From: Membranipora membranacea
Taxonomy: Eukaryota > Bryozoa > Gymnolaemata > Cheilostomatida > Membraniporidae
NCBI GenBank assembly: GCA_914767715.1
Contig: OU612073.1
Coordinates: forward strand, 23,746,001 to 23,810,000
Direction: 5' to 3'
Length of the DNA stretch: 64,000 bases
Shown one piece after another: positions 17,734 to 63,887 of the stretch. Both the position numbers and the translations under genes were made by a program. Positions within the stretch are counted from its first letter, which is position 1, and each line of letters begins with the position of its first letter. The notes under the pieces are model-generated. The model worked only from the letters and a program-made list of their open reading frames with translations, ran no database searches and was not told the origin of the DNA.

Positions 17734-17739
17734 AATAAA
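17734..17739 (+). promoter_or_regulatory. Polyadenylation signal of ATP-grasp copy A
   Basis: AATAAA lies about 270 nt after the stop codon at 17459-17461, within AATTAAAATAAAAGG. It is a good candidate for the transcript 3' end. Confidence 0.5.
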
Positions 17740-20156
17740 AGGTTTTGGCAAATTACCGAGGGTAATATTCATACTGAGAAAATCTCTAAGAGATACCACA
17801 TTCTCTACTCGTAATGCTTGAAAAGATCACAATTGCCTCCTCTTGTCTCACAATATACAACAACAAAAACTGCAAAAACAGAGGCCTGTTACACCATTTT
17901 TCATTAGTATCATAAATAAGTCTCTAAGGGAGTAATGAAGGTAATGACTTGAGATCTTATGATCCAGGTTTGGTTCCGGGCGCCGGATATTATTTCTGAT
18001 TCGGCACTGGCAAGCCATTAATCCTAGCCAGGTCAGCTTGGAACAGGGCCATTAATACAGGAGGTCTATACCGTGTGCTAGCTTAAAGTATAAATATTCC
18101 TCTCTGCCTTTTTGAAAAAAAGAGAATCCAGCAACGGCGGGCAAGAATACAGGGTATCAACCCAAAACAAGCCACCATTACATAGGGCGGTCAAGTAAGA
18201 CCTTGTGAATAATAAATAAACCAGAGAAAAGCTAGTGTACAAAACAAAAACAAGTAAGATCTATGTGCTAACACTTCACGATCTAACTTCATAAATCAAA
18301 CGCGTATTTTTCGGCTCTATCTTACCCATATGTAGCCTGTCTTGACAAGCAAAGTAGGGCTAACCCATGCGGTAATTTATAGTCTAGGGAAGGACAATAC
18401 ATTCATGTAGCATGCTATATCACAGTATAACCTAATTACATACTATAATTTTGCAGGGTCAATGCCACACTACATTCTACTTCCAGGGTTGTGGTAAATT
18501 CTTGTGTACGTTGCTCTGAAAGTAGGACACAGTTGGTGGATCGGCTATGAATATTGATCATTTAAATTTCTGAATGCTACAAAAGTCATCTACAATCATA
18601 CACAAAAATTAAATTGAAATCATAATAATGTGTCTTCAGCTGGCGCACCAAAACTACTAGGAGATATATCATTATCATGAAGCGCTGAGGCTGACCCCAT
18701 CAGCATTCGAATATGTGAAAGGAAAGCCCTACGGCAAGGTCACACCTGGGTTCCCATGAAATCAACTTTTATCCACATCAAATTGTATATACATGGGTTC
18801 AATGTTATAAGTCTTATATGTTTAATGTATGTAAAACATCGTTTACTCCGCTATGGAAGTTTTGTGAGTGCTAGCAAGGACTAACTTTGATATGTAGTAC
18901 TTCAGTTCTGATAGCCTCATTAAGTTGTCCTTATGCTCATATTAAAGCTTATCAGCTGTAGGAACTACTGCAGGTACAAGTGAGCCCTTACTACAATTCC
19001 CTCTTCCCATTTCCCCTTGTGTTCTTATTTGTGTTTCAAATCTTTAAGAATCATGGTACCAAGTTGCATATAAATATTTGGAAGATTTTAGCCATGCAAA
19101 ACTTGCTAAAATTTCTCACAGGTTACCATCTCATGAATTCATAGCATGAAATTGTCAAATAATAAAGTATTCAAAATATTCAAAAAAAATAAAAATTCCA
19201 GGGTTTGGCTAGACAACTAGTTCACTCTACGTAGAGGTTGCGAGTTTGTTCCTGAAACATAAATTGATTCTCCTAGCAGAAATAGTACCTGCGGTAACCG
19301 GATGAATTTGAGCTATAGTCAGCTATAGTAAGTCTGACCTTACTAAAATAATTCAGTGGCAAATAAACCATTTGACGCTTCTGTTTATGGCACCGAGACT
19401 GTAACCAAAGCCTGTATCTAAATGGACCTGGATGGGTGATAACTACCAAACTAAGTTTGCTATTTTTACAACAATTAGTCAGAAGGTATCATATTGGTAG
19501 GTTAGATTGTACTCATATTTATATAATGAGCAATATGTAGCCTTGTTTCGTGGCACATTGATGACTCTAAATATTAAATGGGTGTAATGTATCTCTGCTT
19601 TTTGCAGTTTTGTTAGAGCACATAATTGTGATATTTACGACTATTACGTTAAAGACGGTGTTATATATTAGGTGTACTTATTGAGTCACTCTTCTCAGTA
19701 AGTCGCCACCAAAACTTTTGTATTTAAATTACCCTTGAAGAAATGACTTGAAGTAAGAGATTCATGAACATGCATAGAATTCATAGGCCTAAGGTTATTT
19801 AAGAACAACAGGGTTTCACATAGCTCAGAAGCCTACTTATAATGCTGTATTACAGCCTTGTAACCCAGAACAAACCAGATTGCACAATAACGGCTGTTAT
19901 TTATCAAATATATATGCATACATGCCATCAATGAGATACAATAATTTATGTCAGAAAAACAGGTGAAATAAATAAAGAGGTTTAAAATGTCTACCCTTCT
20001 TTTCATTGTTGCCTGTTGACTATGATTTCTATACTGAGTCGAAAAGTTTGCTCCAGCTTTTCCTGGTAACGGATCATGTTAAAACACAGTAGTGTATCGG
20101 TTGACATTATAGAATACGGTAAGGTATGGGCTACTACAGATTTGATCGGAGAGTGC
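17740..20156. other. Spacer between the convergent ATP-grasp genes
   Basis: No gene recognised. About 17930-18230 contains GC-richer sequence with a weak B-box-like GGTTTGGTTCCGG and could be a decayed SINE, but I could not fold a tRNA from it. The rest is AT-rich and unassigned. Confidence 0.5.
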
Positions 20157-23100
20157 CTACAAACTTGTGATAGGCTCAGCCCCAAGGCAAGTTAGACTAG
20201 GATTCTTGAACAGTTTCTGAAAAATTGGTTTTAACTTCCGTCTGCAATCTTCATAGTCATCTCCAGTGATGTTGGCGAAACAGAAGCACGCAGAGTTGGT
20301 GCCGATGACTCTATCCTTTTCGATGGCCAGTTCATAGCTGATGTCTCCTCTTTTCTGTGCACTGACTCTCTCGAAGTACTCGTAATCGAATATATCTGTG
20401 GCATTGCCCGTCTCAAGGGTTTGCAGGTAAAAGTTTACAGCAAATTTTGGAGCACTTCGGTCCGTCTGTAAGCAGAAAAAGACATCATATCATTCTATCT
20501 CAGATAGTGTCTCAGCAGGCTGTATGAGACATGAAATGGATGGAGCCTGGGGGAATGGGTACGGTATATGGACAATGGCTAAGCATCCTTCTCAAAAGCT
20601 CAAGTTGTGAGAGCTGTTTTTGAAATATGCTTAACTTTGCATTTTAAACTTCTGAAAAGATCAAACATAGTTAGTAAGGGTAGACCCAGGACTTTCAATT
20701 ATGAATTATCAAAACAGAAACCTCTAGACTTGCACGGGGATTGAATTCGTAAACCACAGACTTTTTATAACGGCACTGTACTGTATACTATTGAGTTCTA
20801 CTTTAAATTGTTTATTTCTCCGTGTGCTTAATAGACCTGCTACCATGAAACATGTAAACGCAGCATTATTTGCCCTGCCCTAATGCAGAAATAAGTAAGT
20901 TGACCGAAGTGATGTCAGAAATTCTGGTCAAACTCAATATTTTTTTACGATTTATATGCATCCATTAGATAAGGTATGAGTGTATAGATGCAGATATACT
21001 CTTGTGTGCATAGAGGAAAAACTGTTTCCTCTTCTGCAACCACTTGAATATAGCACAACACAAAAGTGTTTGGAAAACCATGGACAGTGCAACATGTTAG
21101 GCTGATGTAACACTAAATTTCATCGAAGTCATTAATAGTCACGCATAGCCCGTTATGCGTATGACTAATATCTGTTAGAATTCTTACCAAATATCTGGGT
21201 TTAGTTGGTGGGACAGGAACTCCTAGCTGCAGATCGAAGAAAAGCTTCATTTTGTCTAAATTGTAGAACATTTTCACCAGATCCAGATACTGATAAGCCA
21301 TTCGTGGGTTAATTTCTAACACCTGTAATTGAAAAGCTCAAAATCACATAAAACTACAAATAGTGCTTTCTAATTTACAACTATTAAATAAGCAAATATT
21401 CATACTCAAATTAGAATGATAAAATAGTATTAGATTGGGAACAAGCATAACTTAAAAGACTGAAAAAAGATTTAAGCGTACCTTGACAGAGTGGTCTCTC
21501 ATAGCGAAGGTCTCGATATTGAAAATACAGTTGTCCATACCGTAGCTGATCAATCGCTGACAGACTTCATCTCTCATCTTAAATGCTGCTTGTTGAGCAG
21601 CTTTCGGTAATCGAGATGGGACAGCACACGCAATGAACACCTGAGGATTGGTATCCCAGTATAGATTGTCAGCAAACTCGCATTCTATAGCTCGCCCTGC
21701 AAGAGGTAAAATTATGATAAATGAGATGAAGGAATGAAATAGAGCAGAGAATAAGTCTGACTTGAACAGTGCTACCAAAAAAAAACATGTTGTCTTTGGT
21801 CTATCTTAGTAAAAGACCAGAGAATAAAGATAATGTTGATGGTCTCCCAAGAGCTGCCTTAAAATACGAAGCAAAGCTGATATTTAGGAGTTGTCTCTTC
21901 TAACATATGAGCCCTCACCATTTTGGATGCAGACTTCCATTGTGTGTATTGTAGCCTCCCCTGTATCAACACCAATACATTCTTCTGCCAGTAGATATGG
22001 TGTCTTTAACATTTCGTATTTCTCTTCTAATCCAACTAACAGCTTACCCCAAACTTCATAATAACATCGCATGTCTACACCTGGTCCTGTCACTTTATGA
22101 ATCGCCTGAAAACAAGTTATTAAAGAATTATTTGTACAGGTGAAACAAGCATCCTTATCTCAAATGCTACTTATTGGTCAGTTTTTGGGGCCATATAAGA
22201 TTGGAGAAGGTCCCATTATTGACTTCCAAAGAAAAAGAATTCTTTGAGATGAGATTGAGTTTATTGAGTTTATTGAGTTTATTGAGTTTATTGGGTTTAT
22301 TGGGTTTATTGAGTTTATTGAATTTATTATGGATTCATTATGAATTCAAATATGATCAATTTTATTGGGTCAAAATAAATTTAAAGTGTTTCTAGTGTAT
22401 TAAAAGGATTTCAAAAATATGCTGGATCAAATGGATCACAGGAGAATATTAGAAAAAGTAATAAATACCTACAATCGACCAGCGAAAGCCTACAGACTAG
22501 ACTAAGGACAGCTATGGCTATTCAATGTTTTGATCTTTCTTCTTTGTTGCGCATGATCATGTGATCATGTGACACAACTTGTATCATCAGTCATGATCAG
22601 TGTGCTTTGGCAGGTATGAGTATAAATAACATTTAATAGATGTAGCTCGATTCTGTGTAGTTAATTCACATGGATACTAACCTCTGCCAGCTCATCTCTG
22701 GTATCACATTTCTGTATGAGGCTGGAAGCTGTTCCACAAGATGGCTTCAGGATGAGCGGTAACCCGACAGCGGCAATAATCTCATCGATGTTGATCTCTT
22801 GGTTTGGGTAAAGCGGGATTGCGATGTGCTTGACATTGTACTGATCAGGTATAAGAAGTTTACGAGTGTAGCCCTTCAAGTTACATAACACAACCGCCTC
22901 GACACTCGGGCACTGGAAAAATAGCATAAGTGTAAATTGTAGATAATTTGCACTACGATTGCCTTATAGCCAATTGGCACAATATCTCACCTCATTACAT
23001 ATGAACTCTTTACAATTTGCTAAAGTGCAAAATCATTCAGTTTCCATTTTTTTTTCGAAGATTAAAAAATTGGTCATAGTCATATGATATAGAAATAAGC

Positions 23101-24358
23101 AGTGAAAAGTATATATCAGTTTCCAAATTGACCATTTCTAATTGCAAATTGATGTGATTTGTCTTCTGTGTCATGGTAAGTTGTTATAGTATGCAGTTAT
23201 ATAAGAGAATTTCAAGATAAACTTGCTGTTTGCTAAGAAACAGAAGATTGGGCTGCCCCTAAAGAGGGACGCAAGGCGCCCTAATCCTCATACTGAGAAT
23301 GTGATACATCCTAGAAAACTAGAATGCATCCTAGAGGTGAGGCCATGGTGGACCTCCTAATCTTTGGTGTGCAGCGAGCTGCCAAAACTGAACTGGCACT
23401 AATCGGCCATTGGCAGTGACACTTTGATCTTAGCCAATAGGCCGAGAAGCTTATCGAATCAGTATAACAGAATTAGAGACGTAGGGATCATAGCATATCA
23501 GAGAAAAGTTGTGTGTCCCACCTTTAGATGTGTATTATGATGTCCTATATAACTATGGAAAAGTGCTCCACTATCAAATGCGCTCGATAAAAGTACATCA
23601 GCTTTGTGTTCTTTTACAAGACTACAGTATCGATCTGCAAAGTCTTCTATGTCTTCTCGAGCTGAAAAAAAAAGACACCATAAAGCAGAACATTCAATTA
23701 TATCAAGCTGTAACCTCAAACAAAACACATGCCGCAATTTGTGGTCAAAAACTTTTTTCTAAACAAGATAAGGATTAAGTGATAAGTGTTCCTTTCTGCT
23801 AATCAGATAACCATAACAGATCCATGGTAGAACATTAATGGGATCTAAATATTGGGGTTATTTGCTCATATTTTTGTAATATAGTCATCTATGGAGAGAG
23901 GCTTTATTAAAGACAACCCAAAGACCAATGCATGTTATAGTCAGGCGCTTACTTAGGATGAACTTTTGTCAGAATTTCTTGGTAAAAAATTCATTGCTCT
24001 ACTTGGCACGAATTATTGATAGTGGAAAAAGTGTCTCCTATAAGGGAAGGTAACTCTCATTCTCTGCATCATGATGTCACAGTCTCCCAGAAGTGCTTGT
24101 TATTTTTATTGCATATATTGAGGAGGTAGGAAAAAATAAAATTTATCATGGCTTACAGTGGTTTTGGTCAAAAAAATGGATGAAAATAAATGTTTTACCA
24201 GCAGTGTCGAGATTTGGCACATCAACGTCTGTGAACACCCAGTCAATATCAGGATACATATTCCTTAACTTATCCTTCTCTTCAGTTGATAACTTCTCCC
24301 GTATCCATGGCCGAATAGGCTCAGTAACAACACCCTTGACTCTCTCCTGTGCCGGCAT
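20157..24358 (-). CDS. ATP-grasp family ligase, copy B (458 aa), paralogue of copy A
   Basis: Seven coding exons in transcript order: 24358-24199, 23661-23522, 22912-22682, 22105-21919, 21696-21482, 21322-21188 and 20465-20157. The first six have exactly the same lengths as copy A (160, 140, 231, 187, 215, 135 nt); the last is 309 against 315. All phases agree. The same motifs are present: LILKPSCGTASSL, AEECIGVDTGEATIHTME and VLEINPRMAYQYLD. Exon 1 is about 64% identical to copy A in protein and exon 7 clearly diverged, ending GAEPITSL, while exon 4 is identical in protein. Role as for copy A, perhaps with a shifted substrate or expression. Intact frame and splice sites argue that both copies are functional. 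Confidence 0.88.
22253..22328. repeat. 9-bp tandem repeat (TTTATTGAG)n in intron 3 of ATP-grasp copy B
   Basis: About eight copies of TTTATTGAG/TTTATTGGG lie between exons 3 and 4 of copy B. No matching array is present in the copy A intron, so the array arose after the duplication. Confidence 0.8.
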
Positions 24359-30886: not shown

Positions 30887-33800
30887 TCACCGCCGTGACC
30901 GATCTCTAGATCTTGATCGTCTCTTATGACTCTGTCTGTCATGTGATCGAGACCGTTTCCTCTCCCTGTGTCTACTGTTAGAGCGAGATCTACGCCTCTT
31001 CTCCCTAGACCGAGATCGTGACCTGCGACGTCGCTCTTTGGACCTTGTGCGTTTCCTGTCACGAGATCGATCGCGTTTCTGTTTAAATGGCTCCGACTGA
31101 AACAGACATCAACATGTTACATAAAACAGAACGGGGAATCAATTTGTCTTCTCACTGAAGGCATTATTACTGCCAGCTAATTAGTGCAAGCCAATGAAAA
31201 CTTGAGTAAAGTAATCATGGATCTAGAACAAGATCTGTTCACCAATTCATAAAACAGTCATCTCAATTTCGATATGCCTCCATTGGACATTGAGTTATCC
31301 TTTTGTGCTTGCAGATGACAACAATCCCGCAATATTGAAAAGTATCAATGCTATATTTCATGTAATTATGATAACAGCATTCCCACATTGCATTTTGAAC
31401 CAGGGTCCCCAAAAAATAAGGTCATTTCAATCACACATTATTCAAGGCCTCATATATCTGGGAATTCCCAGAAAATTGCATTGTGGGATACACATGAACA
31501 TGACTTATGGCCTAGAATTGATCCAGGAGCTGATCATCAGACATTGTAAATAATCTATTAGGACGAAAGAAAAGACAAGTAAATTTTACTGATCCAAGTA
31601 ATGGTAGATTGAATAAAAAATGATATCATATTCCAAATAGTTTAACACTCAGTTTTTCTTCACTATTTTTCAACTAATTAAGTAATAAACTGCAGCTTAG
31701 CAATCACCTGTACCCACTGCTATGAATTTATATCAGTGCCTGTGCAGTGACTGTACTAATTTATATCAGTGCCTGTGCAGTGACTGTACTAATACTGACA
31801 ACCAATATTATAGCCATGTTAATATCTGAGAGATTACCGTGCTGTCAGATTTAGATTTTCTAGATGACATCATATCCACATTGAGACCATATATGTGTTG
31901 AGAAGACCTGCCTGATGCACTAGAGTTATCTTTTTTATTGTCCATTGTTGTAACACCTTTACCTGAAATAAACACCACAGTGAGTGTCAGACAACTCCGT
32001 CATATGCCAGAAATGAATATTATGCAGGACTCATCAATAGTTATTGTAATGAGAGTTATTTCACAAACTACAGCTTAGAAATTTAGCCGATTCAGATTGG
32101 GGAGCAAGAGCGGAGGGGGTGAGCGACTGAAGCAACTCTTGTTATCACGCTGTATATGGAAAAAACGCCAATCACAACTGGTTCATATCTAGATACAGCA
32201 AGGTTTGAGGGGGAGGGGGCGTCTGTGGAAGCCTTACCAGTTTCGATCAAAACAACTTTGAACTTTAAACCTATGATCACTATCCAGAACACAAACACGT
32301 GAATAAGTATTACCTTTTCCTTTCCATTTGACTTTGGCAACAGACTGGCTGAAGTCTACATGGATACGCCGGTCATCAATTAGAACATTGTCCATCTTAA
32401 AATAAGCATTCTCACAATGATCCTTCTACAATATATAAATACACAAACAAGTTTTGACAGAGAAGTATATGTAGGGCAGAATACAGCTGATAATTCAGCT
32501 GTCATACCCGATTAATAACATGCTGTATGCACGTGGAACTTTAACAGGGATGTGACTTTACCCAATGCCCTAGGCATTAAAATCAGTCAAATTCGAAGGC
32601 TATAATTTATCTGCCCAAATTACTAGTTTGAAAAAGAAGGTTGAAGACACATCATGTCGCATGACATCATGCCATATGAAGTAATGTCAATGACCGAATA
32701 AAGTTGAAGGAACGCCCAACACTGCTAAATTAAGAAGGCCTCAAATCACATGTTATTTATCAACAGTTCACGAATTTTGTACGTGATTTTACTGCTACTG
32801 CACCACATTTTCAGTTTATTGGCATAGTCTTATTTTTTGTCTAGGCTTTGTAAATTTTTCTCCTATGTTTTGATTTATATCACTATTTGTATTGTTATGT
32901 AGTTATTAATATGTAAAAAGTCACTTTAGACTTCCCATATTTCCGTCTGAACTGTCCTTGTTTTAAGCGGCCACAAAACTAAATTGACAGAATTCAGGAC
33001 CTCTCTTTGAGGTGAGAGCTTACCTTGTCAAACTCAATAAACGCATACTGCAGAGACTCCTGTGTCTTAGTATCTCTGATTACCTCACAACTACAATACA
33101 GAAGAGCAGACAATACAGCTAATTATACAATGTACTGGATTACTGGTACCAATAGGACATAATATAAAGTATATAAATTTACCTCCCTAAATATCTGTAA
33201 TTTGAAGGTTACCTTATTAACTAATGTTCTACTACCGCCTCAAACATTAGAAGGTACGAGTCTAAATCTCCTCACCTTTTGATTGTACCGAATCTAGAGA
33301 AGATAATTTCCAGATCTTCATCAGTAGTGACAGGATTAAGTTTACATACAAAGAGAACATTCTCCTCCGGAGCAGCTTCCTGGTCGGGTAAATCTCCGAT
33401 CTAAAGATAAATATTAAAGTTTGTTAGAGTGAATACAATGTCAGCTTTAATAATCATACTAGTGTCCAGGTCCAGATTAGTGTTATGGGTTAGGCAGGCA
33501 AACCAAGAAAATCTTAGACTGAGGAGAGTTTGGACAAGACAAGCAGGTAAGTTTGTTCTGCATCTCAGGCCCTCAAAAAGTCTTCACGCTATACATCAAG
33601 ACTGGGATTTGATGATCTAGGCCACAGACAACTTACAACCTGCACCCCTTACCCACAGTAATGATCTGAGTTATAAGAGGGATAGAAGACCTCAATTACC
33701 ATAGAGTGTGTCATCCGAAAGGTGTTTTATACAAATATTTTAGAATATATTCAAGTACCGTTTTGCATCTTAATTCATCAAGTTTTAAAGTATCTTGCAC

Positions 33801-34778
33801 AAGTGAGTTTGGGATAAAATCCCTGTTTGCATAATTTGTATAATGATTTTAGGAGTTGTCCTCTCTCTGAACCTACTGTTCAATGAGGAGATGACTCCTG
33901 ATTGTTTAACTGCACTGCAAATTTTGAGAGTACTGTGGGTATGTATGTGGCTGCAGCCGTCCAAAAGCCTAGATTACAGACCAATCAACTTCCCGTTATC
34001 ATACTCATTGACAAGTATACGGAATTATCATTGATATTCTTTCTTCAAACATACACCTGTCACTCATTTCACCTTCCTAGCCAGGGTTTAAAAGGGGAGA
34101 AGAGAGTACTGTGAATTGCCCGCCCATCCTGTCTGATGAGCAGGATGACATTGACTGACTCACCATCTCTAGGATCTGAGCGTTAGCTTTAGCTTCTTTT
34201 TCTTGTTGTATCTGTTGAATTTCCTCTTCTGATTTTCCCTTAAATGGATCGATGTCTTCATCATACTCCAATCTTCCATTCTACAATACAGATAATGTAT
34301 CATTGACATTGGGGTTAACTTACAGAAGCTTCAAGCCATCAAGTCGCAATCATTTACCGCAAACGTGTGATGATCCTGTGATATAAATTCCACACCGAAT
34401 ATCTCTGTTAAAAATATTCGAGAGTTTTAGTGGTCATTTGAGATAAAAATCATTTTGGCAAATAGTTTTTACAGACTTTCCGAAAAACCTCCTGATTATA
34501 TTTTTCATCAACACGGAGAAAACCGATAGAACGACAGCTCTCGACAACAGATACAAAAGTCATTACACAGAGACCAATATCGTAATCAACAGATCCGTTG
34601 GTGCAGCATACAGCCCGCCGTAAAACATAACTGTAAGTTGTATTCATTCGTGACCGTAACATAACACATCACAACATAGTGAGGCTGTCTTTTATTTCTT
34701 CAGACATTAAGTGCCATCTTCAGTATAAAAACTCATCAAAATATAATTAAATAGGTAACATGTCTTGTACACACTGAG

Positions 34779-34833
<55 letters not shown>

Positions 34834-37800
34834 TAACCTCGTAGTCTTTTATATCGGGTACAGGTGATTGAGGAGGTATAACCAGCCCATCAGGATCATC
34901 ATATGGGTCATCCAGAACAACTGTGTGTAATATCCTACAAAGTAAGTATGAATATTACATAGAGAGAACAACTGTGTGTAATATCCTACAAAGTATGTAT
35001 GAATATTACATAGAGAGAACAACTGTGTGTAATATCCTACAAAGTAAGTATGAATATTACATAGAGAGAACAACTGTGTGTAATATCCTACAAAGTAAGT
35101 ATGAATATTACATAGAGAGAACAACTGTGTGTAATATCCTACAAAGTAAGTATGAATATTACATAGAGAGAACAACTGTGTGTAATATCCTACAAAGTAA
35201 GTATGAATATTACATAGAGAGAACAACTGTGTGTATTATCCTACAAAGTAAGTATGAATATTACATAGAGAGAACAACTGTGTGTAATATCCTACAAAGT
35301 AAGTATGAATATTACATAGAGAGAACAACTGTGTGTAATATCCTACAAAGTAAGTATGAATATTACATAGAGAGAACAACTGTGTGTAATATCCTACAAA
35401 GTAAGTATGAATATTACATAGAGAGAACAACTGTGTGTATTATCCTACAAAGTAAGTATGAATATTACATAGAGAGAACAACTGTGTGTAATATCCTACA
35501 AAGTAAGTATGAATATTACATAGAGAGAACAACTGTGTGTAATATCCTACAAAGTAAGTATGAATATTACATAGAGAGAACAAATGTGTGTAATATCCTA
35601 CAAGGTAAGTATGAATATTACATAGAGAGAACAACTGTGTGTAATATCCTACAAAGTAAGTATGAATATTACATAGAGAGAACAACTGTGTGTAATATCC
35701 TACAAAGTAAGTATGAATATTACATAGAGAGAACAACTGTGTGTAATATCCTACAAAGTAAGTATGAATATTACATAGAGAGAACAAATGTGTGTAATAT
35801 CCTACAAGGTAAGTATGAATATTACATAGAGAGAACAACTGTGTGTAATATCCTACAAAGTAAGTATGAATATTACATAGAGAGAACAACTGTGTGTAAT
35901 ATCCTACAAAGTAAGTATGAATATTACATAGAGAGAACAACTGTGTGTATTATCCTACAAAGTAAGTATGAATATTACATAGAGAGAACAACTGTGTGTA
36001 TTATCCTACAAAGTAAGTATGAATATTACATAGAGAGAACAACTGTGTGTATTATCCTACAAAGTAAGTATGAATATTACATAGAGAGAACAACTGTGTG
36101 TAATATCCTACAAAGTATGTATGAATATTACATAGAGAGAACAACTGTGTGTAATATCCTACAAAGTAAGTATGAATATTACATAGAGAGAACAACTGTG
36201 TGTAATATCCTACAAAGTAAGTATGAATATTACATAGAGAGAACAACTGTGTGTAATATCCTACAAAGTAAGTATGAATATTACATAGAGAGAACAACTG
36301 TGTGTAATATCCTACAAAGTAAGTATGAATATTACATAGAGAGAACAAATGTGTGTAATATCCTACAAGGTAAGTATGAATATTACATAGAGAGAACAAC
36401 TGTGTGTAATATCCTACAAAGTAAGTATGAATATTACATAGAGAGAACAACTGTGTGTAATATCCTACAAAGTAAGTATGAATATTACATAGAGAGAACA
36501 ACTGTGTGTATTATCCTACAAAGTAAGTATGAATATTACATAGAGAGAACAACTGTGTGTATTATCCTACAAAGTAAGTATGAATATTACATAGAGAGAA
36601 CAACTGTGTGTATTATCCTACAAAGTAAGTATGAATATTACATAGAGAGAACAACTGTGTGTAATATCCTACAAAGTATGTATGAATATTACATAGAGAG
36701 AACAACTGTGTGTAATATCCTACAAAGTAAGTATGAATATTACATAGAGAGAACAACTGTGTGTAATATCCTACAAAGTAAGTATGAATATTACATAGAG
36801 AGAACAACTGTGTGTAATATCCTACAAAGTAAGTATGAATATTACATAGAGAGAACAACTGTGTGTAATATCCTACAAAGTAAGTATGAATATTACATAG
36901 AGAGAACAACTGTGTGTAATATCCTACAAAGTAAGTATGAATATTACATAGAGAGAACAACTGTGTGTAATATCCTACAAAGTAAGTATGAATATTACAT
37001 AGAGAGAACAACTGTGTGTAATATCCTACAAAGTAAGTATGAATATTACATAGAGAGAACAACTGTGTGTAATATCCTACAAAGTAAGTATGAATATTAC
37101 ATAGAGAGAACAACTGTGTGTAATATCCTACAAAGTAAGTATGAATATTACATAGAGAGAACAACTGTGTGTAATATCCTACAAAGTAAGTATGAATATT
37201 ACATAGAGAGAACAACTGTGTGTAATATCCTACAAAGTAAGTATGAATATTACATAGAGAGAACAACTGTGTGTAATATCCTACAAAGTAAGTATGAATA
37301 TTACATAGAGAGAACAACTGTGTGTATTATCCTACAAAGTAAGTATGAATATTACATAGAGAGAACAACTGTGTGTAATATCCTACAAAGTAAGTATGAA
37401 TATTACATAGAGAGAACAACTGTGTGTAATATCCTACAAAGTAAGTATGAATATTACATAGAGAGAACAACTGTGTGTAATATCCTACAAAGTATGTATG
37501 AATATTACATAGAGAGTTGCCACATGCTAGAGGGTTTAGGAACAATACATTATTCTGAATTAGAAAAGGTTTTTACAAAAATTTACAAGATAGTGGCACT
37601 AACAGAACTCCTAAAACGAGACCCAGTTACATAATGAGGTGAGTAATATCACTCATGATCATGTTGTACCTTATATTTTGATATGGTGTGCTATTTTTAT
37701 CACAGTATATCTCATTAAGCTTATCTAGTACCTCCTCTCCCTCACTCACTTCACCAAACACAGTATGACCTTGCTGGTCCAGATAGTCAAGATTATCTGA

Positions 37801-40160
37801 CAACGTCATATAAAACTACAACAGTAACAGTACTAAAATATACCGTCACATAAAACTACAACAGGAGCAATTAGAGTATAGAAAAAAAAACCCAACATAA
37901 AACTACAACATTAACAATTATAGGGTCAAAATTAACATCATTATCAGTGAGTAATTGAGTGCAACATTCCAAGACTATAAAATTATGTGTTGCTAAATAG
38001 GGTGTAGGGCATATGGCAAAGGTATATGTGGATTATCAAACCATGAAGTTATTAAATTTTTTCTTTTTTCTATGAAACTTCTAGCTGATTTCTAATTCAC
38101 AATAGGCCTATGCTGCCTAGGCTATACTAAGTCTTTGAAGACCAGATCAAAAGACAGCAATGTCCTATCATGTGAGATGAGATCTGTTTCACTTAGAGTC
38201 AGATTTGATATACTTAGGGGGAGATTTGATATACAGGGGCGTGATCTGATATACTTGGGATGAGATATGATATACAGGGGCGTGATCTGATATACTTAGG
38301 GTGAGATATGATATACATGGGCGTGATCTGATATACTTAGGGTCAGATATGATATACAGGGGCGTGATCTGATATACTTGGGATGAGATATGATATACAG
38401 GAGCGTGATCTGATATACTTGGGGTGAGATTTGATATACAGGGGCGTGAACTAATATAGGCTACTTGGGATGAGATATGAGTTACAGGGGAGTGATCTGA
38501 TATACTTAGGGTGAGATTTGATATACAGGAGCGTGATATGATATACTTAGGGTGAGATATGATAAACAGGGGCGTGATCTGATATATCTAGAGTGAGATA
38601 TGATATACAGGGTCGTGATCTGATATACTTAGGGTGAGATATGATATACAGGGGCGTGATCTGATATACTTAGGGTGAGATATGATAAACAGGGGCGTGA
38701 TCTGATATATCTAGAGTGAGATATGATATACAGGGTCATGATCTGATATACTTAGGGTGAGATATGATATACGGGGTCGTGATCTGATATACTTAGGGTG
38801 AGATATGATATACGGGGGGTGATCTGATCAGAATTCTCCCTGATCTTATATACTTAGGGTGAGATATGATATACAGGGGCGTGATCTGCAGGTAACATCG
38901 CCTATTTTTACCTGCGAGCCATGCATACCGTTGCCATCGTTCACCATGGACACCAAGCCTCTCTTTGTATGTTTGATTCTGGGTTTGATCTCCGCTTCAA
39001 AGAACGCTGCCTGCTCACCATAGAGATGCCTGCATCAAAATGAAAATTGCCATTTGTTTGTAGCCCTAATGAGTTCAAAGCTTTTATGTCGCAACAACTC
39101 ACAACACTTTGCAGCTTCATCTTATAAGAAAGCTGGAGCTGGCATGATAACAATAATCAATTCACTCAGCATCAACTATTTGTTCAATATTTAAACATTT
39201 ACCAATGTAAATGAATCATGGACATATTAAATCTTATCACTGTCGGTCCATATCACAAACAATATATGATAATTACTCACTTGAAAATAGACTGTCCACC
39301 TTTACCAGTGCCGTCTGGATCACCTGACTGAGCCACCACATTCCTCTGTATGTTATGGAACAGGCACATGTTGTAATACTTTGTCTTGCATAACTTGAGA
39401 AAGTTTAGACTAGCTAAAAGTATGAAAAGAAGACAAACAACACCATCAAACTAGACTGAGTCATGAGCTGGTTTATTTTTCATGTACTCATAGCACAAAT
39501 AACTATTGGGTCATTGAAGAGAATAAAAAAGGCAACAATTTCCAACCCTGAACATGTGCTTAGTGCTTAATAAATGGAAACAATGTTCTTGCAGAATAAT
39601 AGGCTATCCCACTACCATCTTTTACCATTATCATCAGTCACTTGTTTGTATAGGTCTAGTTAGTTGTGCTTTTAAGCCAAGGTAATTAGGCCTACATCCT
39701 TATCTCAGAGGCCCCTTTGCTGTTTTGTTTTTGTCCAAATTTAGTACATTTTTTATGACCCAAAAAGCCTTGGACATCAGTGTTATTTCTGTCTTCACAG
39801 ACTTGGACCTCTTTAAGTCCACTCCATATGAGACCTAACTTATAGACCTTAATTCTAATATCACTGGACATGGATAGAAATCAGCATCGAGTCAAGACTA
39901 TAAGTGTAAATTCAATGGTATTGTTTTTAATCTCTTGGCAATCAATTAGAAATAATAATAAATAATATATTTAATAAATGAAAGAAGTTAATTAAAACAA
40001 GCCATTCAATTTATTATCCCTCTCTCCCAGCAATGTCTTCAATGAACTCTAGGTTTAGTCATTGCTCCCAGCTCTGATAATTAGAACTACCTCTTGGACG
40101 ATCCTCTGTCAACAAGTCAATTGTGATATCCCCTAGACTCGTCTCTAAAATCACAGCCAT
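30887..40160 (-). CDS. PPIL4: Peptidyl-prolyl isomerase-like 4 (cyclophilin with RRM and RS tail), 439 aa
   Basis: Eleven coding exons in transcript order: 40160-40091, 39413-39281, 39029-38912, 37815-37670, 34934-34838, 34280-34164, 33400-33276, 33090-33024, 32425-32314, 31962-31838 and 31096-30887. They sum to 1,320 nt and every phase fits. The cyclophilin domain covers residues ~1-165 ([41 protein letters not shown]). An acidic/Gln-rich linker follows. The RRM at ~241-322 has RNP2 LFVCKL and RNP1 QYAFIEF, and the C-terminal ~70 residues are an Arg/Ser/Lys RS tail. PPIL4 is a nuclear protein linked to splicing factors. The Asn in FHN, where classical cyclophilins have the catalytic Arg, is typical of this family and suggests weak isomerase activity. 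The protein is shorter than the ~490 residues of vertebrate PPIL4, mainly in the linker after the RRM. Introns 3, 4 and 5 carry tandem arrays touching the splice sites. Confidence 0.96.
31726..31791. repeat. 33-bp direct tandem duplication in PPIL4 intron 10
   Basis: The stretch beginning ATTTATATCAGTGCCTGTGC is repeated once, immediately adjacent, about 50 nt downstream of the exon 10 donor in transcript sense. It is exact in this sequence, so it is probably recent. Confidence 0.75.
34778..34832. repeat. (GACA)n microsatellite abutting the PPIL4 exon 5 donor
   Basis: About 13 uninterrupted GACA units (CTGT on the transcript strand) begin a few nucleotides inside intron 5, which reads GTTAGTCTGTCTG. 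The donor's own last bases merge into the repeat. Confidence 0.95.
34916..37516. repeat. 51-bp minisatellite, 51 copies, made of the PPIL4 exon 5 acceptor
   Basis: Units are exactly 51 bp; the unit reading CTGTGTGTAATATCC starts at 34921 and recurs every 51 nt to 37471. On the transcript strand each unit holds 32 nt of intron end (CTCTCTATG..., ending CTTACTTTGTAG) followed by 19 nt identical to the start of exon 5 (GATATTACACACAGTTGTT). The unit nearest the exon supplies the real acceptor. Variants (ATTATCC, AAAGTATGT, AAATGTG with CAAGGTAAG) mark individual units; the block 35788-36348 is repeated as 36349-36909 (11 units, 561 bp). Because 51 is a multiple of 3 and one plus-strand frame lacks stops, a long spurious open frame runs through it. 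Confidence 0.97.
38170..38890. repeat. 41-bp minisatellite in PPIL4 intron 3, ~17 copies
   Basis: The unit contains GATCTGATATACTTAGGGTG and AGATATGATATACAGGGGCG. Starts at 38243 and 38284 give the 41-bp period. Copies vary more than in the 51-bp array. It lies about 20-25 nt from the exon 3 donor at 38911, so this intron too starts almost directly in tandem DNA. Confidence 0.92.
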
Positions 40161-45190: not shown

Positions 45191-48100
45191 ATGACAATGG
45201 AGGAGAATGGTGAGTCTAGTTGAGCCTTCTTGCCTCTGCCTTGAGAATTAGAGATAGGCATGCGACATGCTTTTACCGAGCAATAATATATTGTTGTCTA
45301 AAATTGAAATCCACCATGTGTCTTTTATTCTGGAAGCCATTAAAGTTCTGTTAGAATAACAGCCATAAGAGGCCAGCTAAGATCAGGTGATAGATTTGTG
45401 TCAGGAAAGCCAAAACAATTAATGAGGGATAGAGCTATAATTGAAGATGAGGAAGGCTCATTGTTATGGCGGAGACGGCTAGAATTTAAGGGGATCTGTG
45501 TCTGTGAGATAAGTTCGTTCTGTAATGATTGGTACGGATAATTCTACATACTTACATACATCCTACCCTAAACTCTAAAATTGTACCACAGGAACGTGTG
45601 ATTGTAACTTTCAGAAATGGGAAGCGATGGTGAAAGGTGTTTATAGTTTTCCCCTAATGACAAAAGCTAAATGAATCGTTCATTTTTGCAGAACAATGCC
45701 AAATTTGTGAAATCAAGCTTTAGCAGTTGGGGAGGGGGGGTATCAGCTAACTGGTCGAGTAAATCCAAGAGGAAGCTGGAGCAGACCTATCAGAATAGCT
45801 CTGTTGGAAATCAGGCGTGTCTGTCGAGGGGAAGGGGAAATACCACAATGATAAATTGTTTGATAAGCTATTTTATGTGGTGTCCTTTTCTGCCCCCATG
45901 ACAGTATTAGTGACATTCTGTGTGCTCACTGGTATATATACAGACCTAACCCTATTGTTAATCTTGTCACCATTACCCGTCACTGTGATTAATGTGATTA
46001 CAAGAGCTGGATCTATTACCACAGTTGATCGACTGTTTCCTTGTTTTACAGGTAATACAAAGATAAGGACAAGTAAATACAAGCTAGGAGAAGCAGTCGA
46101 TATGTTTGACCACCTTGAGAGTGAGTATAACTAGCTAGTAAACAATTTTGAACCTGACCTGTTCCTGACCCGCCTGTCAAAAAATAGTGAGCCTAACTTG
46201 GTTACGGAATAAAAAAAAGGCACAACCGTCGGTTATTATTATCTGCTGGATGTTTGCCAACCAGAATAGCAGTTATTGGAAATCATAATTTATAACCAGG
46301 ATCATTCCTGTGTCCAAGTGACTTAGTAGCTCAAATAGTGTTACCAACACAATCTGCTGGCCAAATAATCTGGGGAGGTCTTTCAATTAGAATGAGCGAT
46401 GCAAATTACTATTACTCAAAATTATTGCTCACTTGACCTTTCAATCAGATAAGTTTGTTCCCAAATCGCTCACTCAGAATGTCTATAGTTCCATCAGTGG
46501 GTGAGCGATTTGTGAGCGAGACCCTTGGTGACTGCAGGAACGACTGCTACATAAATTCTTTCATTTTTTCACAGGTTAAGTTGGGTTAACTTAGGCAATA
46601 TTTTGTGTCAGAGTCATGATGTTGATATTCTCAACCATAAAGTATGAAAAGAATGCTCTGTGTTCATTTCATCTGTTGGTACTGGTACCATTATAGTTTG
46701 AGTACTAGCAGTGTAGATGGCCCTAACTTATATTATTATTATTCATAACTTATGCTTTGTGGTACTAAAGAGGAAGGAACTTTGGCATAAATCGAATGTT
46801 AATACAAAAAATTATCTTGTGGTGAGGGTATGAAATTCTGGGAATCAATTTCTCTTAATAACAAAGCCCTTATCCACAGACTGTTCTTAATCTGGTAATG
46901 ACTGTAGAATATGGATGGGAGTGGAATGACAGTTACAGGATCGTAGCTGCGTTATGCACTAAGTAACACTTCTATGATCAGTTTGTTAGCTGCTTGCAGA
47001 TGGTGGCTGACTTCATTAGTTGACACTCTTTCTCATTGTAGAGAAAATTACGGAGTATCTGAGAAATGGACGCGGTAAGAGCAAAATGTGGCCGTCTATC
47101 AACGCCTCTATCAATGGTAACGGTACGTGTACATCATCAGAGAAGAGTAAATCTACCGACACCCCGTCTAGACTAGACAGCGATCAGAACAGCTCTGATC
47201 CGCTCTCTATAGCTCATCTTCAGCTGGCAATGCCTCACCCACCGACAGGCCTATCCTTCCCACTGCCATTAGCTTCATCTAAGCTGGGAAGTAAAAAGGA
47301 ATCTAAACAGACAATAAAACGCGAACCACTCTCCAGACAGACTAGTACCTCAAATAGAAGTACGGAAAGTTTGTCTTCAGAACCAGAGCGTCGTCCTTAC
47401 AAGAGAAAACCAGTGGTAGGCCCAGGAGTTAAAGTCCCTGGGGTTAGCAGCCCAAGAGTTTCAGGCTCTGGACTTAAAGGCCCTGGAGCTATTGGCCCAG
47501 GAGTAAGAGGCCCAGGAGTTAAAGGCTCTGGAATGAGAGGTCGAGGAAAGAGAAGAGGGGTGGGTAGAAGATCTATGTCGGGGTCTGTGAAGAGCCAGAA
47601 ATTACGAAAGTGGCAACACAAATGTGATTACTGTGAGTATACTGATTACGCGAGGAGTAGGATTCTTCTCCACATGGTTAAGCACACAGGCAAACCGCCG
47701 TATGATTGTGAGATCTGTGATTACGCATGCTATAAAAAGTTTGAGCTGACCGATCACATGGCGGAACAGCATCCAGCCGAGTATGCTAAATCTATCACTG
47801 AAAAAACTGAAAAAGCTGAGAAGAAAAAGCTGGCTGGCTCAAATACCGCTGCAGATCTGCCCTATGTCCTGCCAATACCTCCTGTCATCGACCACCCACC
47901 CACAGGGGGGAAACAGACCCGGGACCTGAATGAGAGCCTCATACAAGGAGATATGCTTTACTGTTCTCGCTGTGATTACAGCACCGATAAGAAGTGGAAC
48001 ATGGATAGACATGTCGCTGCACTTCACCCAACCTCCATACGTCAGAAAGTCTATGTGTGCTTTGTGACAAAGTGTCGTTACCGAACGATTTACAAGGCTA

Positions 48101-49611
48101 ACTTCAATGTCCATCTGTCGACTAAACACCCCGGTGTGGATCCTAATGATGTTAACTCAACACAGCTGAAGAGGACACACAAGAGGTTCTATCTTAAATC
48201 AACTACTGGCAAAGAGCCCCAGGTTTGCACAATCTGCTGTTTCACCACCCAAAATGCATCACTATTCAAACTGCACCTCCAGAGAAAACATGGGGTTAGT
48301 GAGAAAAGCAAACCCCATAACGAGTCTAAAACTGATGTTGCTCCTACAATCGCACCCAAAGTAGTCCCTCCCAAACAAACGCCACCTTACTCATCTCAGG
48401 AACCCGGGCTAGAGGAGGAAGTCACTCACTCCTGCGGCAGACCTGGATGTGACTTCACAGCGCGTAACAGGGCTATACTGTGTTATCACATGAGGAGGTA
48501 TCACCGTGGTGCACCATCAGCTGGTGTTAAAAGGCCTCGAGGCGTCACCCCTATTGTCGATGCAGCAGCGCTCGTGCCGATTGAAGGCGTGACAGATGGA
48601 AGGAAATATGCATGTCCGCATTGTGAATTCCGTACACGCAAAAAATACAACCTACAGGTACACTTGCTGAAAGGTCACAGTGGCCCTCCTAAACCTTACA
48701 AGTGCCCTCAGTGCCCTTACACATGCAATCTACCTGGCGGTGTGCGCACTCACTGCATTAAGATACATAAAAGGGATGCCTTTGCCGTGCCTGCTCCTGG
48801 TATTGCAGCTCCGCATCACCTGAGACGTCAGAGGTGGCCGACATCTAAGACTCCCAAAAATAAAACGTCCATGTTCTCCGGAGCGCCACTGGAGATATTC
48901 TATTGTGATCAGTGCAGCTACCAGTGTAGGAGGAAAATGTGGATGACTATTCATAAAAGAAGTCACCAGAAGCAAGGAGCAGCTACCTCAGAAACCCCCA
49001 ACCCCTCCTCACCTGCCCAAACTACCGACCCTGATAACTCCTCTGTGATCTCAGCTGGTGGAGCCGCTAGCCAGCCACCCGGTGTACAGATGACAAAGAA
49101 AGCCTCACTCCACAAACGAGGACTGAGAAAGTCTACGATGTCCAGTCAGCAGTATTATGGATGTGATGAGTGTGGGTTCAGATGTAAAGGTAAATACTCA
49201 ATGGAGGTACATAAGAGATCTCATAGTATGCTGGAGGAGGAGACGGAATGTGGTACAGCCGCTGCTGCCGCCGCCGCTGACTTCTCAGAGAAAACCACCA
49301 CTACCACCACAGAGAGACCCAAGTTCTTCTGTCATCTATGCAAGTATTGGTGCTTCTCTCAAGCTTGGCTCACTATGCACCTCAGAAGGCAACACCAGCA
49401 AGGTAAGCCAGGCAAGGCAGCTACTCAGCATCGCAACATTAAGAATGTGCTGAAGTGTGAGAAATGCGAATACACCACTCATATACCTGCGATTCTCAAG
49501 CGTCATATGCTAAAGCATTCCGGAGACAACCCTTATTTCTGCCATTTGTGTGACAGGAAATTTGCTCAGCAAATCGACCTTACTGCTCATGTAAAGATGC
49601 ACGCTGCTTGA
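45191..49611 (+). CDS. C2H2 zinc-finger protein with 13 fingers, 885 aa
   Basis: Three coding exons: 45191-45209 (MTMEEN), 46052-46120 and 47042-49611. Donors AATG|GTGAGT and GAGA|GTGAGT and acceptors TTTTACAG and CATTGTAG all keep phase, giving 886 codons with the stop. The N-terminal ~200 residues are Ser/Lys/Pro-rich and include a GPGV/GPGVKG-type repetitive stretch (~150-195) ending in a basic cluster. C2H2 fingers start at about residues 223, 250, 335, 366, 423, 492, 552, 582, 649, 735, 791, 833 and 860. Most follow C-x2-C-(Y/F)...H-x3-4-H; the fourth and sixth have an extended Cys spacing. The fingers are widely spaced without TGEKP linkers, unlike KRAB-type tandem fingers. It is a probable nuclear DNA-binding regulator. 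I cannot name an orthologue. An ATG at 47020 opens the long exon but lies in the intron. Confidence 0.88.
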
Positions 49612-59734: not shown

Positions 59735-62700
59735 ATGAGGGGGACAACTTTATTCCTAACCATCTCTTTACTCTTCTCATTAGCTGCAGCAGCCACAGAG
59801 TTCACAATAACTCTAGATGGTCAGGATAAATACAACGTTACCTGGTCATACGAGGGGACAACTAAGGACGACTACGTCACGTTCACTGTGAGTTTAGTTT
59901 GCTTTCTTTCTTGTCCTTGTCTTTGATTTATTATAATTTCATTTTTGTCATGGCGCTAGGGAGAATTTTCCCTGATTGCATTTTAGATGCTAACAAGTAT
60001 TTGCTCGACAGGCGAATCAGATCTATTTATTGGGTTATCGATTGATGTTTCTTTACTCTATATCATTTAGATCTTTTTTGGGAACGTAAACAAATTAATT
60101 GTATGCAGAGCCTTAACAAGCTAATTCAAAAATTTTCAGATCACCCTTCAATATCATAAGTAATGACCCATCTATAATAATGATATGGTGTATGATGATA
60201 ATATTAATAAAAAACCTGAACTCGTAATAATAATAATATTCTGTTTTGCCATGATAAATGACTAGATTTTCACATACCCTACAGGAGTTTAATTTAGCTA
60301 GAGTTTAATTTCGCTATCTGGTACTAAATTTCACCAGTACTAAATCTCGCTAGTAGGCTTACTAGTGAAAAATAAAAAAAAGGTCCAAGCTGGGATTCGA
60401 ACCCCGGGCATAAATCTCCTTTGGATTGCAAAGCAGACACTTAAACCACTACACCACGTTACGTTAAGAATTGTACATTGTTTATGAAACTATGGTGAGT
60501 GAGTTTAATTTAAGATACACTAAATTTCGAAACCTAGGCAACAACTCGAAAAGCGAATCCTAAATGCCGCGAAAACTAAACTCCTATTCCTATAGGGTAG
60601 ACCATAACTGCCAACAACGTCACACAACTCAAAGTAATAAGCATAGAGGCGAGGTTATGTCAGAACATGGAAGGTTGTCTGTGTAGCCCGTCTGTTTGTC
60701 TGTCAGTAAATGGAAGAAGTGGATTAATGGCTGTTTAGACTCCAAGTATAAATTGACTCATTATCTTGTTAGCCAGGTTCCATAATGTCCGGAACTGCAG
60801 CTTCTAAATTAATGCTGCAAATTCCCAGCGACATGTTAAACAATTATATAAGATGTGTATGGCTTAGCTATTGTGTAAGTTATTGAGGAAAAACAAAAGC
60901 TGATTTCCATAAATTGCATGAATTAAATTAATATACAGGATTAAAAACTGCTTTCCCTTAAATATATTTGCCAGACTTTAGAGTCATGTAGGCAGAATCC
61001 ATTGACAGCAGCTCATCTAGATTTGACAGCTGACATGCATGAGAACTGCAAGTCAAACTTGCCGGCCAAATCCCAAATAACTTGCCAACAATGTCACACA
61101 ACTCAAAGTAATAATCATAGAGGCGAGGTTATGTCAGAACATGGAATGTTGTCTGTGTAGCCCGTCTGTCTGTCTGTCAGTAAATGGAAGAAGTGGATTA
61201 TACAGATGGATAATGAAATTGAGCATAATGCTTGAACTCCACCTCAGGACACAATCATTGACAGGAGTTTTCTCCGATGAAAAGGCTAAAACTTATGAGC
61301 TCTGATGAGTACCTGAGAACTTAGCCCTTGACCCTTAAAGTAAGAGAGTTAATGGATTATAGTTTTGATGGGGCAGGGGGGGATGGCAAGAGTCTTGGGG
61401 GCTCAGACTACTTATTATGACACTCAATTTTTTGCCTTATCTCCAGATAACATGCGAGACAACAGGATGGGTCGGTCTGGGTTTATCTCCTAACGGTGGA
61501 ATGGCCGGAGCGGATCTGGCTGTAGCCTGGGTATCTGCAGATGGTGAGGCTTTTCTTGAGGTGAGAATGCACAGCCCTCTCTATAAACATTTAAGTAGAT
61601 TATGCTCAGTCTTCTAATACACTTCGTATCGAAAAAGGTGAAGTAGTCAGAAATCTGACCCAACTGGGTGATATTTTATCCGGGACCATCCGTCTCTCAC
61701 AAAATTGTTGACTGTTTGTTACTGGGAGGACAATCAAGTTAACAAACTGCTGTTTGAGGTTAAAATTCTGGGATTCTTGCTTTTTCATTGAATGTTTTAG
61801 TTTCGCTCTTTCTGTCTGTCTTTTTCACAAAAAGATAAAAGGTCATTATTTTTACAGGACATGCACGCTTCTTCAAACAGCTTCCCTTCGACAGACGCAT
61901 CAAACGACCTTGAACTCTTATCATCATCAGAAACGGACGGTATCACCACCATCTCATACAAGAGAAGGATCGCTACGTGTGACGATGACGACAACATTAT
62001 AAAGGTCAGGGGTCACCTATCACCAGATATACTCATTCTAAATTTAGTTAAATCAAAGTTTGACTGCTAATTTGATATAGGATTGTTTGTCAGAATTGAT
62101 GGTCAACCAAGACAACTTATTGGCTGAAATTAGTTTCAAAAAGTTATGAATTTTTCTTGTTATAATAGACGGATCTGCTTTGGAAAATAATATCTTTAAA
62201 AATTAAGCACATGGCTGTGTTGAGCATCCTAGTTACAAATACCAAAATGTAGGCCTCTTTTAACTAAGGCATTTTCTAGGACAAGTAAATCATCAACTTA
62301 AAAATTCTAAAATGACCTGCCATGGATAGTTTTTCCTTGAAATAATATCTCTAAAAAATTACGTACATGGCTGTGTTGAGCATCCTAGTTACAAATACCA
62401 AAATGTAGGACTCTTTTAACTAGGGCATTTTCTAGGACAAGTAATTCATCAACTTAAAAATTCTAAAAGTACCTGCCATCGATAGTTTTTTCTGACTTAG
62501 ACTTTATCGTGGCATCAAATATTTTGTATCTAATTTTGAAGAGGGTTTTATAAACATAGTGTCACTTTCCCACCCATTTTCAAAAGAGAAGGCTCTTGTT
62601 TGACAAAGTATGACAGCATAGTATTATTACATCAAGTATTGATTGGGATCTAAAGTTTAATCAACTGAAATGAATTGAATGAATGACTTGATTGTGAAAC

Positions 62701-63887
62701 CATACAACAAAATGCTATGTTGTCATTGACAGCATGCCAGTTAGCCCTAGGCCTTAGTCCTCCTAGCCCTAGGTCTCTGATTCTAGCTAAACATATTTGT
62801 CCTATAAAACGAACTGCTGGTTATTCATTTGATTCCGTAACATTATAAAAATAGAATATGCCAGTAAATATAATTTTCTACAACGCACGCACGATGTTCT
62901 TTTTCTCTACCTCAAACCCAAATATCATGTGACCAAAATGACTATCATATTATCATTTCACCAACTCACTAATTGCTTTGTTCTATAATTATACAGACAT
63001 CTACTACCCGCCTGATATATGCCTACGGCTCAGCAGACCCAGTGGACAATGTACTCCAGTCCTCAGACTACCACTCCAGCAACAGAGGGGCTAAAAGTAT
63101 ATATCTGCTCGACCCTCAGACAGCAGCTAACGCTCTGCCTCAGGATTCTCTCACACATGACTTTCTCACCAACGATGTGAGTATATCAGTCTAATATGCC
63201 ACTTGTCAGCTTGCAGTATTATGACATATATGTTTCTGAGTGAGGGTAACATGGGTCTTATGATTAGAAGAGTACTTCTCTTTCCCTGAATAAGCAGCTT
63301 CAGTAACTTTTTATCACCGCAAGGAATGAGTGAGAAAATAAAAAGAAGAATCAGAAAAATAACGTATCTTGTCTGTGCAAAGTTATTTCTGTGCAATAGA
63401 AAGAACACTTGTCCATCATTGCTGTAACAATGTTAGGTTACTTTAGATCAATTTCTCTATTTTTTCTCCAGTATGAAATACCGAACCAAGACACAGAGTA
63501 TTACTGCTCCTTCCACGACCCACCAGTACTTAACGGAAAACACCACATCGTGGCAGTAAGTAATCCTTTATCGCTTTATGATTGCTCAATTTCTCATCGC
63601 ATACTTTATCCCAGTTTATTTGCTTTTTTTTTAATTTCATTACTTATTGCATTGCGTAATCAGGGTATATGTATGATTATATCCCCATCCTACCACAGGT
63701 TGAGCCTCTGGTGACACCAGGTAACGAGGGAATCGTACATCACATTGTTATCTACGCTTGCTGGGGAGTAGAAAACGAACACATCGTGGGTAACAATAAG
63801 ACAGAGGGAGTCTGCTTCACAGACGCTATGCCTGAATTCTTCGGTTCCTGTCGAAGTGTATTCTATGCCTGGGCTATTGGTGGATCG
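59735..63887 (+). CDS. DBH-like (MOXD/DBH family) copper monooxygenase, N-terminal 289 codons
   Basis: Six exons in view: 59735-59887, 61447-61560, 61858-62004, 62997-63176, 63472-63555 and 63699-63887. Each is a multiple of three, so all introns are phase 0. The last ends in a donor and the gene continues beyond the window. Residues 1-20 are a signal peptide (MRGTTLFLTISLLFSLAAAA). A DOMON domain follows, with GWVGLGLSPNGGMAGADLAV typical of it. Next comes the Cu2 monooxygenase N-domain: YEIPNQDTEYYC, the copper-ligand pair KHHIV (His 222-223) and VHHIVIYACW (His 240-241), then MPEFFGSCRSVFYAWAIGG. Enzymes of this family hydroxylate small amines or related substrates in the secretory pathway using ascorbate and O2. 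The ATG at 59735 was preferred over the in-frame one at 59690 because it has A at -3 and starts the signal peptide. I cannot choose between DBH, tyramine hydroxylase and MOXD1. Confidence 0.92.
60280..60600 (-). mobile_element. MITE-like element with a tRNA-like core and T-run, in intron 1 of the monooxygenase gene
   Basis: The ends are inverted: CAGGAGTTTAATTT on the left and AACTAAACTCCTATTCCTA on the right. TAAATTTCGCTA-like motifs repeat inside. On the minus strand 60470-60385 reads like a tRNA: A box TGGTGTAGTGGTTTAAG, then GGGGTTCGAATCCC as T-arm/B box, then a T8 run. The acceptor stem does not pair, so I call it a tRNA-derived SINE or MITE core rather than a tRNA gene. Confidence 0.65.
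60613..61205. repeat. Direct ~118-bp duplication in monooxygenase intron 1
   Basis: About 60613-60730 and 61083-61205 are nearly identical, including GTCACACAACTCAAAGTAAT and CATAGAGGCGAGGTTATGTC and ending AGTAAATGGAAGAAGTGGAT. They are about 470 bp apart, in the same orientation. Confidence 0.85.
62182..62495. repeat. Tandem ~157-bp duplication in monooxygenase intron 3
   Basis: Two adjacent copies share ACATGGCTGTGTTGAGCATC, TTTTCTAGGACAAGTAA and CCTGCCAT(G/C)GATAGTTTTT, with few differences. It lies wholly between exons 3 and 4. Confidence 0.85.

Follow-up and report, generated by a model that had tools for sequence, protein, structure and literature searches.

A 51-copy minisatellite mirage across the intron 4/exon 5 boundary of PPIL4 in the bryozoan Membranipora membranacea

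Analysis of 64,000 nt of Membranipora membranacea DNA (contig OU612073.1, positions 23,746,001–23,810,000; hereafter the window) showed that the 3′ splice site of exon 5 of PPIL4 stands at the end of a 51-copy array of itself. We consider the array, with a probability of about 95%, to be a mirage, i.e., a minisatellite lying across an intron–exon boundary, in this case that of intron 4 and exon 5. Most of the PPIL4 mRNA would probably still be produced from the one acceptor that abuts the exon, with little loss.

The host gene was modelled on the minus strand as nine coding exons spliced in silico (exons 1–9, 32314..40160, with further exons toward the 3′ end), separated by eight introns of 185–2735 nt. 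This model and its alignment to seven PPIL4 proteins upheld the original prediction that the gene is PPIL4. Protein identity was 84% with Watersipora subatra, 82% with Bugula neritina and approximately 70% with most of the other animals listed. Exon 4 (37670..37815, minus strand) ends in the donor AAG/GTACAA, which at 3.5 bits was the weakest of the 20 donors scored, and the 97-nt exon 5 (34838..34934, minus strand) ends in GAG/GTTAGT, which at 9.5 bits ranked eighth of 20. The two exons join in frame, and the protein at their junction matches the seven aligned PPIL4 proteins; the joint lies in a conserved stretch in which R156, I157, H159, T160, L163, D164, D165, and P166 were invariant in all eight sequences. 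Intron 4 (34935..37669, minus strand) is 2735 nt long, its unique sequence being positions 37517–37669. A search of the whole assembly (339,339,785 bases in 18 contigs, the window lying on contig C9) with the PPIL4 protein returned 15 matches, namely the nine exons described here and six other cyclophilins at 33–50% identity; no second PPIL4 or spliced retrocopy was found by this protein search of the 339-Mb assembly. Tandem repeats occur on both sides of exon 5, i.e., the 51-unit array and a (CTGT)n microsatellite (34779..34833, minus strand) that begins 5 nt from the exon end, just beyond its donor. A 41-bp minisatellite with 15 copies was present in intron 3 (38202–38828), 84 nt from the donor end of exon 3.

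Other features were seen in and near the window. An inverted pair of related multi-exon genes (14090–17748, plus strand, and 19709–24295, minus strand) shared 77–90% DNA identity in eight blastn pieces; no Pfam match was obtained in the four exons of this pair that were tried, and the plus-strand copy carried an array of three 19-bp units just past an exon end (16450–16506). At 47020–49608, an open frame of 863 aa contained C2H2 zinc fingers. Open frames at 55504–56391 resembled a LINE-type reverse transcriptase by eye, and the part at 55771–56391 had no Pfam match. Related tandem repeats of approximately 110 bp, in opposite orientation as judged by eye, were located at 5325–6325 and, approximately 7 kb away across the left edge of the window, at 8933–9437 of the neighboring locus L002.

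Tandem Repeats Finder (TRF) placed the array at 34914–37516 (minus strand), with 51.0 head-to-tail copies of period 51, 98% matches, and 0% indels, so that the end originally predicted stood and the start moved from 34916 to 34914. Splitting the array on the transcript strand yielded 51 units of exactly 51 nt each, consisting of 30 nt of intron end finishing in CTTACTTTGTAG followed by nucleotides 1–21 of exon 5 (GATATTACACACAGTTGTTCT). Both analyses bore out the claim of a 51-fold unit carrying the exon's own 3′ splice site; the claimed unit length of 51 bp was correct, but not its division into 32 nt of intron and 19 nt of exon. Four unit types were distinguished (A, 35 units; B, 9; C, 4; D, 3), with B and C differing from A at one position each and D at two. 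The exon-abutting unit (34914..34964, minus strand), which bears the acceptor that preserves the reading frame, is of type A; 34 of the decoy units were identical to it and 16 had one or two changed positions. At the upstream edge, unique sequence ending in GTGGCAA is followed by the array, which opens with CTCTCTATG, and the first unit on the transcript (37466..37516, minus strand) is of type C. The array therefore has the features of a mirage: the unit spans the intron–exon boundary in tandem copies, the authentic boundary lies at an end of the array, the gene is otherwise intact over its nine mapped exons, and splice signals are retained, with an AG in 51/51 units. A 920-aa open reading frame on the plus strand across the array was dismissed because the unit reads as 17 stop-free codons in the frame concerned.

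Splicing in silico to the upstream AGs led in all 50 cases to an in-frame stop after nine new codons, as opposed to the approximately ten that had been predicted, and confirmed that the frame is preserved solely by the copy adjoining the exon. The products were one sequence or its one-residue variant, 165 aa long in all cases, which we take to correspond approximately to the cyclophilin (PPIase) domain without the RRM. The decoy stop is located at least 118 nt before the exon 5/6 joint; by the common rule, a stop so far ahead of an exon joint tends to trigger nonsense-mediated decay. Depending on the acceptor used, intron 4 would measure from 2735 nt with the authentic site down to 185 nt with the AG of the first unit.

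Acceptors were scored with a matrix built from the other 19 of the 20 acceptors of PPIL4 and a nearby MOXD/DBH-like gene (see below), and since these matrices are small, the ranks are rough: the exon 5 acceptor scored 4.2 bits and ranked 17 of 20, and units of types C and D scored 2.5 and 2.2 bits, respectively. A second AG (CAG/T), present in 48/51 units, scored −3.4 bits or less. Recursive splicing through the units, which had also been proposed, was not supported. Recursive splice sites are likewise acceptors within one long intron, but they require an AG directly followed by GT, whereas all four unit types read TAG/GATA; the donor-like TAT/GTAATA within the unit scored 1.2 bits, under all 20 real donors (3.5–11.6 bits, with a matrix built from the same 20 donors that were scored).

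Hairpins enclosing the acceptor were predicted for each unit type (−6.9 to −12.3 kcal/mol). That of type A has a 10-bp outer stem and a folding energy of −10.8 kcal/mol, equaled by 2/200 dinucleotide shuffles (z = −2.5). With mononucleotide shuffles, the hairpin at the exon 5 acceptor had the lowest z-score of the 20 acceptors (−3.66, the next being −2.57). The hairpin was rejected as the mark of the chosen acceptor, because the authentic type A copy folds in the same way and the structure therefore does not explain site choice. It may have aided the expansion of the repeat.

The folding of the unit into a hairpin (10-bp outer stem) and its splice signals would also fit a mobile or dispersed introner-like element, or a satellite, inserted at the acceptor. 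We find this explanation scarcely credible: a search of the assembly with the 38-nt unit core, allowing up to three mismatches, gave 51 matches (35 exact, 16 with one mismatch), all of them inside the array and none at other loci, and the reversed control pattern gave 0. A separate DNA search of the assembly with the unit pointed to the same single place, and the exon part of the unit encodes conserved PPIL4 residues. As all unit copies reside in one array and no second PPIL4 was found, the array must have arisen in place. The flanks and the first and last copies fit the expectation for a local duplication. The founding event would have been a single tandem duplication of a 51-bp stretch across the 3′ splice site, with 2 bp (CT) common to the breakpoints, and before expansion intron 4 would have been 185 nt long. 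Growth to 51 copies may then have proceeded by unequal exchange or slippage, including the duplication of an 11-unit block. Read in transcript 5′ to 3′ direction, the unit order is CAABAAAAAAAAAAAACBBBAADAAAACBBBAADAAADAABAAABAAAACA, in which CBBBAADAAAA is followed by CBBBAADAAAD (best-lag permutation p = 0.012, 1.2% of 20,000 trials), indicating that an 11-unit block was copied within the array. The near-identity of the units suggests a recent expansion rather than long conservation.

Homogeneous tandem arrays are generally held to be easily mis-sized, and an assembly artefact could have produced a wrong copy number. This is very improbable here: the four unit types are arranged in a block pattern that is hard to produce by error, and the 2.6-kb array is presumably shorter than a typical HiFi read. 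The Membranipora membranacea assembly is moreover described as having been made with 66x HiFi coverage (PMC10290214).

The array is not the only mirage in this region. A small, two-copy acceptor mirage was detected at exon 4 of PPIL4 itself (37804..37864, minus strand), where CTGTTGTAG/TTTTATRTGACG occurs twice, 40 nt apart. The authentic exon starts at 37815 and the upstream copy is at 37855; exon 4 CTGTTGTAG/TTTTATATGACG and the copy 40 nt upstream were identical in 20/21 columns across the boundary. The pyrimidine tract is longer in the upstream copy, whose use would shift the frame, as 40 nt is not a multiple of three. A donor mirage was located approximately 30 kb from the PPIL4 array, just right of the window (locus L003, positions 3059–3675, corresponding to C9:23813059–23813675), in a MOXD/DBH-like monooxygenase gene. 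The first six exons of this gene lie within the window (59780..63887, plus strand) and the gene continues beyond the window end; it was identified by its Pfam domains (DOMON and Cu2_monooxygen) and its homologs. A phage search with one of the MOXD exons gave no match. The end of its penultimate exon, ..CATACAGACGGGCGG.GAGGAATTTCCG/GTAAGT, is present three times, the third time with a short deletion. Each copy comprises the exon end and CCG/GTAAGT, a minisatellite of approximately 12 bp resembling GTAAGTGTATGT lies between the copies, and intron 12 contains 27 GTAAGT.

Duplicated junctions were not particularly frequent. At a score of at least 18, a local copy spanned 3/40 annotated junctions (24 of MOXD and 16 of PPIL4), a proportion biased upward because the two genes were taken up after a mirage had already been seen in them, vs. 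325/1200 positions drawn at random from these genes, or 136/1007 outside the 51-bp array. Duplication is thus not enriched at junctions, and selection is not required as an explanation. The probability that a random 51-bp window in PPIL4 covers one of the 18 mapped exon edges is 9.2%. Where a gene contains several minisatellites, mirages are to be expected even in the absence of selection. A 200-kb sample outside the window (20 loci, 18 of them across ten contigs and two beside the window) contained 26 minisatellites of period at least 10, seven with at least five copies, the longest being 505 bp; local direct repeats formed 15 clusters in it. It is the size of the PPIL4 array that is exceptional, at 2.6 kb vs. 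505 bp for the longest in the 200-kb sample. By eye, no exon assignment was made in six repeat stretches and at L018 1168–1379, genes having been called at L003 only. No local duplication was detected by blastn in twelve cyclophilin stretches (L022–L033, 19.9 kb) with unmapped exon ends, and TRF gave short matches in three of the twelve. Overall, these three cases in two bryozoan genes suggest that mirages form in regions rich in minisatellites and are tolerated by splicing.

This distribution bears on the earlier proposal that the array tunes or autoregulates PPIL4. As a selected switch, PPIL4 would contact the intron near the branch site and repress the splicing of its own exon 5 via the array. 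The hairpin at the exon 5 acceptor, the strongest of the 20, is consistent with such a role, as is the truncated product, which would presumably keep approximately the PPIase domain only. The human protein is described in the B-AQR spliceosome as binding, together with PRP2 and SKIP, the exiting intron at nucleotides 17–20 downstream of the branch-site A (PMC10208982). Even so, we regard the switch as very improbable, since mirages also occur at the MOXD donor and at PPIL4 exon 4, junctions are not enriched in duplications, and the recent expansion suggested by the near-identical units argues against long conservation. A tuning device specific to PPIL4 is not supported, as the structure is not confined to this junction.

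The Adh3 mirage of amphioxus is said to have been described by Cañestro et al. in 2002. Amphioxus mirages are reported as minisatellites on intron–exon boundaries of Adh3, the globin genes BflGb6 and BflGb9, and TnC, with like repeats in PGBD5, and are said not to disturb splicing (PMC3087553, PMC3902484). Like the PPIL4 array, they are intragenic, minisatellite-like duplications of a boundary in many copies with splice signals; both acceptor-side and donor-side cases are known there, as here, and regular mRNA has been reported or suggested for them. The reported sizes are 6 and 3 units of 150–160 bp in BflGb6 and units of 10–72 bp in Adh3 (PMC3087553), whereas the PPIL4 array comprises 51 nearly uniform copies of 51 bp and has a bryozoan host. 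No mirage report in a non-amphioxus animal was recognized in literature searches, in which the search by the word 'mirage' was confined to amphioxus. Human internal tandem repeats at exon–intron boundaries, described as variable minisatellites with 27 intron modifications, resemble the array in that they alter gene structure at boundaries, but they reportedly average four 30-bp units and occur in genes of segmental duplications (PMC2812944), as opposed to 51 units and no second PPIL4 found here.

Evidence on how splicing deals with such copies came from the MOXD donor mirage. The cDNA-type protein P0241 (598 aa), encoded by a contig of 2111 nt, was matched nearly residue for residue by the locus, where the corresponding sequence extends over more than 8 kb; because of this near identity, the contig almost certainly comes from Membranipora membranacea itself or a very close relative. 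P0241 reproduces 12/12 MOXD introns and joins SHISRCIQTGGEEFP to ENQYHDF (at GGEEFP/ENQYHDF), which corresponds to the donor of copy 1, the exon-abutting copy. Copies 2 and 3 have the identical nine-base donor CCGGTAAGT, and their use would give stops. The evidence consists of one assembled contig, in which minor isoforms are invisible. Exon definition would account for the use of the copy 1 donor, and the special spliceosome rule for the last copy that had been envisaged is not supported. By analogy, from a donor to an acceptor, the exon-abutting acceptor is likely to be used in PPIL4. Exon definition would select the last copy, because the entire exon comes after it and a good donor lies 97 nt away; behind each decoy there are just 21 nt of exon before intron sequence resumes. 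The 50 decoys would be spliced out as part of intron 4, and the array would be neutral.

Minigenes with a duplicated 3′ splice site (PMC5389562, in which Reed and Maniatis 1986 is cited) also present rival copies of one acceptor in a single pre-mRNA. These carry two engineered acceptors, compared to 51 natural ones in PPIL4, and are described as being spliced more slowly in vitro when both 3′ sites are bound at once, with one duplicated globin series spliced to the distal site only and very inefficiently (PMC5389562). For human competing 3′ sites at least 20 nt apart, the upstream site is reported to be favored, less so under exon definition, which favors the sites closest across the exon (PMC9225289). 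The two sets of findings point in different directions as to mechanism. Against the neutral reading, 50 upstream decoys should cost something given this upstream preference, and splicing to the first of them would bring back an intron of 185 nt, as long as the one separating exons 7 and 8.

A mirage that leaks, with upstream acceptors or multiple U2AF/U2 occupancy taking a sizeable share and PPIL4 mRNA falling with array length without any selected function, is a real though clearly less probable possibility. Besides the human competition and minigene data, it is favored by the decoys, 34 of which match the authentic unit exactly and 16 of which nearly do, and by the donor of intron 4 being the weakest of the 20. 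No near-identical PPIL4 protein was present among the matches listed (lengths of 180–574 and 91–289 aa), whereas the MOXD product was found in the same collection; this absence could be due to low expression, fragmentation of contigs, or a true loss of mature mRNA. On the other hand, splicing is said to proceed undisturbed in amphioxus genes with mirages, the MOXD transcript is correctly spliced, and the acceptor scores low, although this applies to the authentic copy as well. A further step would be a length-dependent brake, in which the 51 near-equal acceptors load several U2AF/U2 on one intron, splicing is slowed or misdirected, and the dose of PPIL4, which itself contacts the intron downstream of the branch site, is set by an unstable minisatellite that differs from colony to colony or among tissues; we consider this rather unlikely.

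The preferred reading remains that of a mirage which probably leaves normal splicing working, and which could slow it. The PPIL4 array represents an unusually large case of a known repeat type, in a bryozoan, and constitutes a natural experiment in which the spliceosome chooses one acceptor among 51 identical or near-identical copies.
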